A DNA stretch of 64,000 nucleotides, taken from the NCBI GenBank assembly GCA_009667805.1, contig RXON01001664.1, forward strand, positions 53,074 through 117,073, in the 5' to 3' direction. Shown one piece after another: positions 51,727 through 58,491 of this stretch. Below the pieces are notes generated by a model that was not told where the DNA came from, did no database searches, and saw only the letters and a program-made list of their open reading frames with translations. Position 1 is the first letter of the stretch, and every line of letters starts with the position of its first letter. Origin of the DNA: Leptobrachium leishanense. Lineage: Eukaryota > Chordata > Amphibia > Anura > Megophryidae. The position numbers were made by a program, and so were the translations under genes.

Positions 51727-52149
51727 TCTGCCTCCCTAGCAAAGCTGCGAGGCGTGGGTACTTGAGACTAACTGAGTCTGTATTGACCAGTACTCACACA
51801 ATGAAAGTTCAGCAGACAGTGTCAACTCAGCAAAACTGACACGTAGAAAGATGAATCCAGTTGAAAACTTTAATGATCAGACTGACAATCTTTGTAATTA
51901 CAAAGTTCAGCAATGCAGGTGAAAAGACATTAGTTCTGTCCAGCATTGAGCAAAGATGACTGCTAGGTGACCAGTAAGTACCTCAGAACTAGACTTAACA
52001 AAAAAGGTTGGAGCTAGCTGGATACAGCAAGGCTAAAGGAACCCAGCAGGATCAAAATAGCTATGAAATAATAGCTGCAAGCAGCAAAAGGCAGATTCAA
52101 CACTTAACATTAAAATATACAAATAAACCCTGAGTCATGGGTCATGACA
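51727..52149 (-). repeat. BEL/Pao element LTR, left copy (3' LTR)
   Basis: It shares GCAAAGCTGCGAGGCGTGGG, CAGTTGAAAACTTTAATGAT and TGTCCAGCATTGAGCAAAG with the copy at 58251-58491. Its right edge is GGGTCATGACA at 52149, so the sense strand begins TGTCATGACCC. The plus-strand text CTCCCGTCT after it is a purine run on the sense strand, fitting a polypurine tract. Confidence 0.8.
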
Positions 52150-52533
52150 CTCCCGTCTGAAATCTTTAGATTTTAAAAGAAACTAAAACTATAACTTTAA
52201 ATGTCCTCTTGGAAACCCAATGCAGAGACCTGAAAAACAAAGGTAAAGCATTCAATAATACAACCTTACACTTTATAGCCAGCACTAAGTCAACAGTCTT
52301 AAAGGTAGGCCATAGTTTCAGATGCGAGGAGTAAATTTAACAAGTTAACCCATCTTCGTGCTGGGGAAGCCGCTCTTGGCCAAAACTTCCACCAACACAA
52401 TTGTAATCCAACTGCCTGTTTGTGGAAAGGCTTCTGCCGAGAGCAGAAACTCTTAACTGAACTTTTCCCTTGGCAGAAGGAGTATCAGTTCGGTGATTGG
52501 CCGGAAGAAACTATATACAATACCTCCTTTAGT

Positions 52534-52602
52534 CACTTGACCTTCACTTTTCGGATTCTTCCATCGTCACTGGGCATAACCTGAGTGACAAGACCCATTG
52601 AC
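52534..52602 (-). pseudogene. pol: BEL/Pao integrase C-terminus
   Basis: On the minus strand the frame reads SMGLVTQVMPSDDGRIRKVK and a stop. BEL/Pao integrases end with a W-P-M-G-L-V... DG-R-V-R-K-V-V segment, and this fits it well. The upstream integrase domain, RNase H and RT do not exist in this element. Immediately upstream in the same frame is RPL6 sequence. Confidence 0.75.
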
Positions 52603-53119
52603 AGGAGTTGGGAATCCACAAACTTCTGATCGGCTTTGCGCTGTAGTGTGACTGCGTATGTTTCCTTCTCTGTTAAAAAGACTCTCCCTGCTGGTGCTTG
52701 GGTTTGCGCAGCCTCTTCTTCTAAGTAAGCATCAGTCAGGTGCTTTGGAACCTTGACACTTGAGATATTGACTTTTGTGGAAGTGGCGATAACAAATTTC
52801 TGGTGAGCTCTTCACAGGGGCACCCGGTTGATAACCAGGGGTCCTGTTACCAGCGGAAGGCCAAACTGGAGCTGCTTCAGAAAAACCACATGCTTCCCCC
52901 TGTGGCGTCCATTGAGGAAGATAAGCACAGTCCCAGGAGTGATGGAGGAGTGAAGGTTGCGTTTGTGCTGGCTGAAAGGCTTCTTGCCATGGTTTAACAG
53001 CTTTCTTGGAACATCTTCAGTGGAATAATATAGAGGCATTTTACGCAGTATGACTACACATGTGCAGCAATTCTTATCCCCACCGACTGTCTTTGACACG
53101 GTAGCTCTAGCCTTCTCCT
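52603..53119 (-). pseudogene. RPL6: RPL6 (ribosomal protein eL6) segment, C-terminal part, captured in BEL/Pao
   Basis: RPL6 is a protein of the large ribosomal subunit. The minus strand here reads KTVGGDKNCCTCVVILRKMP, STEDVPRKLL, GKKPFSQHKRNLHSSITPGT, NGRHRGKHVVFLKQL, LLVTGPLV-type text, NRVPL, then after a stop VIATSTKVNISSVKVPKHLT and LQRKADQKFVDSQLL. The order and wording are those of vertebrate RPL6 from the middle to about 30 residues before its end. There is no intron, no stop codon of its own, no 3' UTR and no poly(A). It joins BEL/Pao integrase directly at VDSQLL/SMGLV. Substitutions (for example GG to CC) and a stop show it is not functional as a ribosomal protein. Confidence 0.88.
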
Positions 53120-55686: not shown

Positions 55687-58003
55687 GAAGAGGACACTAT
55701 AGTAACTTCCTGATCTGTAGTCTCCCCGCCGTGCTTTGACACGGTAGGGGAGTCTGTTGACGTTGCAGGCATGTACTGAGATGGATGTAGCGCCTGCACA
55801 TAATCCACACTATCACATTCTATGCACTTGATAGGAAGTTTGCAGTCTTTGGCAAAGTGCTCAGTATAAGTACAACATCTGAAACATACACCATATGTCT
55901 TCAGGAGCTCCTTGCGCTCTTGGAGTGGTTTCTTTCTAAAGCTGGTGCACTTTTTGAGAGGATGTGGCTTCTTATGAATAGGGCAAAGGCGGTTAGGATT
56001 CTCAATCTTTTCACCTTGTTTGCACTTGTCAGGAATTGAGGTAGGAGGGGGTATCTGATCTGTAGTCTTCTTCACTGATACTGGACATTAGTCTTCTTCA
56101 CTGATACTGGACCCCTGCAGCCTCTGTGATTAAAGTGCGAGCTGTCGGACATCTGAGGAAGGGAACCTGAAGCGTGGAACTCACTGTAGGATAAACTGGG
56201 GTCATTCTTTTTTTCTGCAATGTTCCTTATGAACTCGCAAATGTAGGAGAAAGGTGGAAAGGAGATACAGTATGGTTCACTCTTTTATACTTTGCCCCAA
56301 GTGCAGCCCATTTTTCCTGGATATTGTATGGCAGCTTGAAAACTATTGGGTTTACCCCACGAGCAGTGTCCAGATAGCTGAGGCCAGGTAGGTAAGCATC
56401 CGTCTTGGCCAGCTGCAGCTCCCAGAGAAGGTCAATGAGTTCCAAGAATTTCTGATTGTCCTTGCCGGACATTTTTGGGAAACAGTGCAGGCGATTCAAC
56501 AGAGCGTTCTCTATGGCTTCAGGGCTGCCATAGCTTTGATCAAGTCTTTGCCAAGCAGCATCGAGGCCCAACATTGGATTATTGATGTGGACAGCTCTGA
56601 GTCTCTTGACACGTTTTGTAGACTGGGGACAAGCCATCTGATCAGCAGGTCCAGTTCCTCAGCAGGAGTAATACCAAGATCACTAATTGCAGTTCTGAAG
56701 GCACCCTTCCAGCTTCTGTAATTTTTAGGTTGGTCATCAAACTTCGAAAGGTTTGTCTTGGTGAGTTCACGGCTAACCATGTATCTAGCAAACTCAGACA
56801 TGTCGGTTTTCTCTGACTTTGGGCAGGGAAATTAAGTTTGAAAGGCGTTTGCAGTATTCTGATTAAGTGACATAGGGTAGTATGCGGTTGCATCTGTATT
56901 TAGCCCTGGAGTTGGTTTAACGTCCATAGACTCAGGCAGGCATGGTTTTATAGCTGTATGGTTGCTAGGATTTTGATGAATTGCTGGAGTGTAGAATTGC
57001 ATCTGAGAGTTAATGCATTGGGATTGCTGTTGCACTAGGGCATGTGAAGAAAGGTCAGGGTCATTAGCTAGTAGAGTATTGTACTGACCTTGGATGCAGG
57101 GTAATGCTAAAGAGTCTTCTCCCTGTTTTGGAAGGTTGTCACAACTGTGTGGAACATTTGATGTTAGGAAAGGTTCACTGTTTTGCTTTAATACATAGTC
57201 TCTGGTGCGTTTAAGAGAATCTTCATTATCCACATTGCTTAAGCTGATGCTGTCTCTTTCACTTGCCCTGGCAGCTTGTTCTAGAACCCTTAGTGTTGCC
57301 ACGGCTGTGGCATGCTCATACTGTTTCTCTAGGGCTTGTATTTCTGCTCTTTTGCGAGCTGCGTCCGTTTCCATTTCTGCTTTCCTTTCTGCTTTTTTGC
57401 GAGTGGCATTTCTGCTTTCCTTTTTTCAAAGGCTGCCAGTATCTTGGTAGTCTCTGATTTTGCCCAGGTTTGAATAAGCTGCAGACTAATTGATGAACTC
57501 TTTGAATATTGTGAGGATTTTGACCTTGAGAGATGTGAGCTATTTGAATGCTTGCTAGATGCCGAAGTGTGAGAAGCAGTCTCTTGGAGTTGGGCAATTC
57601 TCTCTTCCACCTTTACTCTGGCCTGATGTACTAAATTGTCTCTTTCTAAATTAAGACATTTTAATTCATCTATTTCTTGTAAAGCCTGTTTAGACGTTAT
57701 CTTCTCTAAATTAGAGACATAAATGTGACAGTGGGCAAGATTTTGAGCATGAGCTGTAGAGAGCTGTCCTAAAACTCCTTCTAGTTAGGATGCATCACGA
57801 ACAGGGTGTGTGATGGTAGAGACATAACTCATCACCTGTTCCCAAAGCCATGGCATTTGTTGTTTATGTCCATAAGTGTTTCAGTAATCTTACATGTAGG
57901 CTTTGTGTTGAGCTTGCTTCTGACTGGATTGATATTCATTACTTCCATATCTGAAACAAGTTGCCTTTCCTGTGATGTTAGAGGGCTTCTTCTGTCTGCC
58001 ATG
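55629..58003 (-). pseudogene. gag: BEL/Pao gag (several frames)
   Basis: On the minus strand the start is probably MADRRSPLTSQERQLVSDME at 58003. Then come MEERIAQLQE with a Ser-rich stretch (57610-57329), ETDAARKRAEIQALEKQY and a coiled-coil-like segment (57374-56832), the gag core FARYMVSRELTKTNLSKFDD and NYRSWKGAFRTAI (56801-56511), LRAVHINNPMLGLDAAWQRL and LSYLDTARGVNPIVFKLPYN (56637-56227), and zinc-binding text CPIHKKPHPLKKC, CFRCCTYTEHFAKDC (56075-55629). This order is typical of BEL/Pao gag. Frameshifts and stops separate the blocks. Confidence 0.87.
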
Positions 58004-58250
58004 TTTTACACAGACGAGAAGAATAAGAAGGGAGCAGTAGAATTGCTGTCTGGTTAGCAGGCACTGTGTGGCTAAGTTTACACAGGCCCACACCTTGCAG
58101 CTGTAGGCAGACTCTGTCTGTGGGATACAGTACTATCTGGTCTCTGGTTCACTGAAGGCTGCTTACTTGTGGTGCTAACTGCTGTTAATTTCTTTTCACT
58201 AATCCTGGCAGCTTGATGTCTTTTCACTAATGCTGGACAGAACTAATGTA

Positions 58251-58491
58251 TTTTCACTATTCTGCCTCCCTAGCAAAGCTGTGAGGCGTGGGTGCTTGAG
58301 ACTAACTAAGTCTGTATTGACCAGTACTCACACCATGAAAGTTCAGCAGACAGTGGCAACTTGTAGAAAGATGAATCCAGTTGAAAACTTTAATGATCAG
58401 ACTGACAATCTTTGTAATAGTGTACAGCAATGCAGGTGAAAAGACATTAGTTCTGTCCAGCATTGAGCAAAGATGGCTACTAGGTAACCAG
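58251..58491 (-). repeat. BEL/Pao element LTR, right copy (5' LTR, truncated)
   Basis: It is almost identical to the first part of 51727-52149, but stops at GGTAACCAG (58491), where unrelated sequence starting TAGACATGTGCATTCG follows. The outer part of the LTR has therefore been lost. Just inside it, 58195-58250 holds an inverted partial copy of LTR text (TTTTCACTAATGCTGGACAG). Confidence 0.75.

Follow-up and report, generated by a model that had tools for sequence, protein, structure and literature searches.

The 64,000-nucleotide stretch of Leptobrachium leishanense DNA analysed here (contig RXON01001664.1, positions 53,074 to 117,073; hereafter the window) contains on its minus strand a long terminal repeat (LTR) retroelement, assigned to BEL/Pao from its sequence relatives, in which the core of pol is replaced by an intronless segment of the host gene RPL6. 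An earlier note on this DNA had proposed the order BEL protease and reverse transcriptase (RT) start, intronless RPL6 and BEL integrase tail; this order is confirmed, and the natural annotated protein P0123 reads in one frame through both joins. The hybrid forms a dispersed family, and the RT core is absent from all the hybrids read. Its most probable origin (about 0.88) is a pair of template switches during BEL reverse transcription, followed by mobilisation in trans.

The host RPL6 gene (L044) was identified on contig C1 near 129.3 Mb and comprises six coding exons encoding 265 residues, beginning MAGEEAAKKTE. The captured segment corresponds to nucleotides 22-708 of the 798-nucleotide coding sequence (CDS), that is 687 nucleotides or 229 codons (8-236), and is intronless. 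Because the host gene has introns where the capture has none, messenger RNA (mRNA) was the source of the captured text, which supports the origin suggested earlier. The same suggestion had RPL6 lacking its start and roughly 30 last residues: both ends are indeed missing, the loss being corrected to the first 7 codons and to the last 29 codons plus the stop. The identity of the RPL6 text is certain, with vertebrate eL6 matches on the minus strand at 52812-53129 (E 5.3e-47) and 52533-52811 (E 1.5e-26). At join 1 the host reads GCTGCG and then AAGAAAACCGAGG, where most copies read TTGAAG and then AAGAAAACCGAGG; at join 2 the host reads CTCCTGCCATTGGTC and most copies CTCCTGCCAATGGGTCTT. The RPL6 3' end is absent from the capture, element sequence adjoins it directly and no poly(A) is present at the joins. 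Two ordinary RPL6 pseudogenes, L041 and L043, retain the RPL6 start and 3' end, unlike the capture.

Sister copies were sought in the 3.54-Gb genome with a 390-bp query across junction 1, and the best 40 of 748 first-look candidates were scored, the window included. All 40 span the join, the other 39 with 90-94% identity to the query, and they sit on 10 of the contigs C1-C13 plus 7 further contigs. Since the scoring covers the best candidates only, 40 is a lower bound for the number of hybrid copies. Twenty of the 39 non-window matches were read as sister loci; the position of junction 1 is identical in all of them, one AAG triplet being absent there in L034 and L036 and individual copies having point changes. 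Junction 2 is common to 14 of the 20. Copies with the same two junctions elsewhere in the genome, as the earlier note had envisaged, are therefore present, and they share descent and are dispersed. Its view of the RPL6 edges also stands, with neither a poly(A) tract nor a target duplication there and element sequence in their place (junction 1 in 20 loci, junction 2 in 14), and no intact BEL/Pao pol was seen around RPL6 in the loci read. In 10 of the 20 loci as fetched the hybrid has LTR sequence at either end; in others one end is lost or falls beyond the fetched stretch. Three loci (L022, L025 and L034) end or are interrupted ahead of junction 2, a later deletion common to L033 and L040 fuses RPL6 with the 3' stretch, and a different one affects L036. 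The presence of the L033/L040 deletion at two dispersed loci seems to indicate that a second-generation derivative of the hybrid also spread.

BEL/Pao LTR elements make short target duplications of 4-6 bp. In the six two-LTR loci compared by eye, 5-bp duplications are exact in L029, L032, L033 and L040 and have one mismatch in L023 and L036; that of L033 consists only of C and is weak evidence taken singly. This count leaves out L024, L027 and L039 (LTR sequence at both ends, but interrupted), and the 5' edge of the window copy is lost. As the hybrid copies read have only the integrase tail, integrase was probably supplied in trans. Possible helpers are autonomous BEL elements: in a genome search with an RT piece, of which the best 150 of 1357 candidates were scored, many frames exceed 1000 residues, and one autonomous copy has LTRs 99.8% identical over 462 bp with ACGAC on each side. 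The eight RT-bearing BEL copies read (L045-L052) form one family, which is about 64% identical to the hybrid protease region over the longer aligned pieces and for that reason is not the parent. These copies and the relative P0004 encode TLKN(K/R)PEM at join 1, which makes plausible a short A/G word shared there with RPL6 AAGAAAACC.

We infer that packaging was followed by template switching and then by the action of helper enzymes in trans, as follows. A chance event would have brought an RPL6 mRNA, already spliced, into the particles of a Leptobrachium BEL/Pao element. While making the minus strand, RT would have left the integrase tail for RPL6 at codon 236, read it back as far as codon 8, and then switched to the element RNA at a point just within the RT gene. 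The resulting hybrid would have kept the LTRs, gag and protease, with RPL6 replacing RT, RNase H and most of the integrase, and autonomous BEL enzymes would have copied and integrated it many times. Some points weigh against this account. An intact parent element was not found by the genome searches with the RT piece or the protease piece, the latter (best 150 of 2663 candidates) yielding one frame longer than 1000 amino acids, L055, itself chimeric. Microhomology is no more than plausible at join 1, judging from distant relatives, and junction 2 is absent in 6 of the 20 loci, by truncation or later deletions. Finally, the 20 loci come from the 40 matches closest to the window and may be unrepresentative of the family as a whole, older branches perhaps being missed.

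Other routes to the same structure were considered. A pseudogene of RPL6 made by a long interspersed nuclear element (LINE) could have landed in a BEL copy, a deletion removing pol and the pseudogene ends before the product was amplified; two ordinary RPL6 pseudogenes, L041 and L043, do exist in the genome, but RPL6 is directly abutted by element sequence in all 20 loci at junction 1 and in each of the 14 loci with junction 2, P0123 shows both joins to be in frame, and an insertion with deletions on both sides would be required prior to amplification. This course of events is very unlikely, and the capture as a LINE retrocopy was rejected, there being no RPL6 3' end and no poly(A) at the joins. 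The repair of a break in one BEL copy, capturing RPL6 complementary DNA (cDNA) by DNA-level recombination or end joining ahead of amplification, has a parallel in mouse zygotes, in which the available part of PMC4516963 reports reverse-transcribed spliced mRNA captured at breaks. It would nevertheless require an in-frame replacement of pol on both sides where the LTR route would take fewer steps, and is highly improbable. One contig by itself would leave room for an assembly error fusing RPL6 and BEL, but the identical join in 20 of 20 loci, together with the BEL text seen by eye next to RPL6 in all 16 annotated Leptobrachium proteins read, reduces its probability to almost nothing; an assembly artefact was ruled out by the same join at 20 loci.

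The RPL6 part could also supply a protein function to the element and be kept by selection. The frame is intact at both joins (P0123), and some copies, e.g. L023, L026 and L031, match RPL6 in one stop-free piece. Fourteen differences separate at least 75% of the copies from the host and count as fixed, 11 of them at third positions; 10 of the 14, however, recur in one or both of the ordinary RPL6 pseudogenes and for that reason most likely arose on the host side, which leaves four specific to the hybrid (3 silent, 1 coding). Against such a function, the copy-to-copy differences are about equal at the three codon positions: 0.074, 0.075 and 0.067 for positions 1-3 of RPL6 part 2 (15 sequences), 0.060, 0.083 and 0.063 for the RT start with RPL6 part 1 (21 sequences), and 0.073, 0.065 and 0.061 for the protease region (13 sequences), each set made up of the window and those loci that match the query over at least 85% of its length. 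A selected RPL6 protein was rejected on these near-flat differences and is very unlikely, although early selection would leave little trace (4 changes) because the time from capture to spread was short.

The distance to host RPL6 is 0.039-0.080 in the 20 copies and 0.064 in the window, and the LTR-LTR distance is 0.036-0.081 in six loci. With only 4 of 14 fixed differences specific to the hybrid and codon positions about equal, the capture is placed shortly before the spread of these copies, with RPL6 a passenger. After their spread the copies decayed under no visible constraint.

The mechanism proposed is already known; the present case differs in that a vertebrate BEL/Pao element had its pol core replaced and the hybrid became a dispersed family. 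LTR-mediated retroposition in metazoans is reportedly the subject of Tan et al. 2016 in Genome Res. As described in the available parts of PMC5408686 and PMC8232201, a spliced mRNA enters an LTR element via short similarities, giving a limited, LTR-flanked part of the mRNA; retroposition of this kind by template switching is known in metazoans from mosquito, zebrafish, chicken and fly cases (PMC5408686, available part). By these partial descriptions, the hybrid is similar in being an intronless internal mRNA segment within an LTR element for which template switching is proposed, and differs in the replacement of a vertebrate BEL/Pao pol core and in the join shared by at least 40 copies. Maize Bs1 is said to have lost much of pol and to be present in few copies. 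It is an LTR element with retrocopies of three cellular genes (PMC5408686, available part). The hybrid likewise carries a cellular-gene retrocopy in an LTR element, Bs1 being, by that partial account, a plant element with three captured genes. In oncogene-transducing retroviruses, as here, genes of the element give way to an internal host mRNA segment and the product needs a helper. Their spread is horizontal and infectious, whereas the hybrid is a retrotransposon of the germline in which nothing points to selection for the function of a gene. Mosquito BEL/Pao elements reportedly have a viral envelope gene added to an otherwise complete element. BEL/Pao elements and chuvirus sequences in mosquitoes are treated in the available part of PMC7642597. 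Foreign coding sequence was gained in both cases, whereas here it is a host housekeeping gene and it replaces pol. No article on an RPL6-carrying BEL/Pao family was identified by title among the literature matches listed, and neither RPL6 nor 'ribosomal protein' turned up when the genome paper on L. leishanense (PMC6895153) was searched for these terms in its main text. A vertebrate BEL/Pao element that captured a housekeeping mRNA, and whose hybrid multiplied, indicates that LTR elements can spread copies of a host mRNA beyond a single deposit; as one capture event left many datable copies, questions on packaging and template switching become testable.

The hybrid is also present among annotated proteins. 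Three protein searches gave, among the matches listed, 16 Leptobrachium UniRef entries named eL6, L6 or uL6 N-terminal domain: P0001, P0121-P0123, P0150, P0198-P0202, P0205, P0209-P0211, P0216 and P0270. Fourteen are assigned to L. leishanense and the other two (P0001 and P0121) are without a complete species name; a 166-residue piece of P0121 was matched at 100% in this genome. In all 16, read by eye, the RPL6 part is accompanied by BEL text on one side or both. Again by eye, RPL6 part 2 of L026 is the same as in the L. leishanense protein P0198. The gene models of P0001 and P0121 end in GTILCSRQ and GTVLCSRQ, ends that may come from a deletion or a predicted intron. These 16 entries are likely the annotation of element copies, and a proper 265-residue RPL6 was not among the Leptobrachium matches listed. 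Element-derived eL6-type entries (16 of the 16 read) could inflate gene-family counts, a warning for annotators.

The order of the element in the window, on the minus strand, is LTR remnant, leader, broken gag frames, protease and RT start, RPL6, integrase tail, 3' stretch and LTR. The span of 51727..58491 given earlier is corrected, the 3' LTR being complete from about 51724 to 52149 and the 5' LTR keeping only about 58258-58493. This 5' remnant (58258..58493) has lost approximately the first 173 bp of the LTR, whose full extent was defined from sister copies. It is identical to the 3' LTR at 226 of 237 aligned sites, with 17 gap positions (distance 0.053 over 237 sites). Immediately 3' of it lies the leader (58229..58257). 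The gag region (56227..57784), judged from its frames, comprises several broken frames and is whole or partial in many sister loci; a DUF1759 match (E 0.00084, below the curated cut-off) lies in frame 56227-56658, and no Pfam family was identified in the gag frame 56832-57425. The next region (54844..56087) comprises a zinc-knuckle-like gag end, recognised by eye, the protease and a pre-RT region. For its frame 54844-55809, 170 of 1236 candidate proteins are relatives at E<=0.001, these BEL relatives including the Leptobrachium BEL::RPL6 protein P0001 and P0115, the latter with PF05380 (Pao retrotransposon peptidase); the Pfam search of the protease frame gave zero matches even at E<=10. The BEL RT start (54736..54849) ends at junction 1 and was delimited by aligning the window with the 20 sister loci; sister proteins align there with the Bufo BEL protein P0004.

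The captured RPL6 follows on the same strand in two parts, part 1 from codon 8 (54581..54735), placed by comparison with the host CDS and by the join common to the sister loci, and part 2 to codon 236 (52601..53132), placed by the eL6 matches and the host CDS. Between them is a LINE-like insert of 1.4 kb with an A-rich 3' end (53133..54580, minus strand) and a 13-bp target duplication on both sides (53120-53132 and 54581-54593, repeat D12). The insert is absent from the equivalent site in 20 of 20 sister loci and is thus private to the window copy among the 21 read. The RPL6 pieces on either side of it were compared separately. After junction 2 comes the C-terminal tail of the BEL integrase (52453..52600, minus strand, frameshifted), identified from sister loci and a weak DUF5641 match (E 0.071 in the window, 0.0057 in P0150 and 0.0067 in P0123, all under the curated cut-off). 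The tail had been put at about 20 residues; the match at 197-239 of P0150 gives about 40 instead. The 3' untranslated stretch (52150..52452, minus strand) has at its end a polypurine tract, agacgggag, similar to the tract before the 3' LTR in sister loci, and the 3' LTR (51724..52149, minus strand; TGTCATG...GGCAGAATA) is full length, as supported by sister copies. The protease and RT-start relatives, the sub-threshold DUF1759 and DUF5641 matches, and the LTRs with 5-bp duplications in sister copies together argue for the BEL assignment.

In Tf1, which is self-priming, the sequence right after the 5' LTR is complementary to the start of the mRNA. A similar pairing is a candidate in the toad elements: the window leader, on the minus strand, is reverse-complementary to the LTR stretches 51919-51947 and 58436-58464 (inverted repeats I1 and I2) and forms a candidate self-priming binding site. 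The duplex begins at leader base 1 in 10 of the 10 copies taken, namely those with a readable leader and a pairing stretch in the 5' LTR (L031, whose 5' LTR lacks the stretch, was omitted), the duplex program being given only a chosen 40-base piece of the LTR. Both pairing sides are changed in the L033/L040 subfamily (leader AAGGCA, LTR TGCC). In a divergent BEL family (L053) the pairing is present with other letters: the leader starts GTCAAAAGATGA and its own LTR has TCATCTTTTGAC, 12 bases at LTR position 237-248, against complement lengths of 6-11 for the remaining 13 leader windows in this copy. For four chosen cases the base-1 complementarities of 12, 11, 14 and 14 were matched by 0, 1, 0 and 0 of 500 shuffles, which preserve single-base content only, and the across-family values are 4 and 0.

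One control points against self-priming. The longest perfect own-LTR complement of leader bases 1-20 beats all other leader windows in one of six copies only, the window (12 against 10); the values against the maxima of other windows are 11/14 in L023, 7/8 in L027, 7/9 in L033, 8/9 in L036 and 8/11 in L040, a weak result perhaps due to a repeated motif in the leader and to copy decay. With these mixed controls it is tentatively suggested, at somewhat less than even chance, that the hybrid family and the divergent BEL family might prime reverse transcription from their own mRNA in place of a transfer RNA, as Tf1 does. Self-priming in BEL/Pao was not identified by title among the literature matches listed and is absent from the available part of PMC3601003. 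If the suggestion is correct, a self-priming family using enzymes in trans could spread with only its LTRs, leader and cargo, and this would help to explain the high frequency of a hybrid without pol.

Outside the element, a short tandem array with a unit of 23-30 bp (GTATACCCAGACACC...) lies near the 3' LTR at window positions 51189-51439. An inverted repeat with a 12-bp loop lies at window positions 58591-58644, some 100 bp upstream of the break in the 5' LTR, and may be a further mobile element that had a part in removing the start of this LTR.

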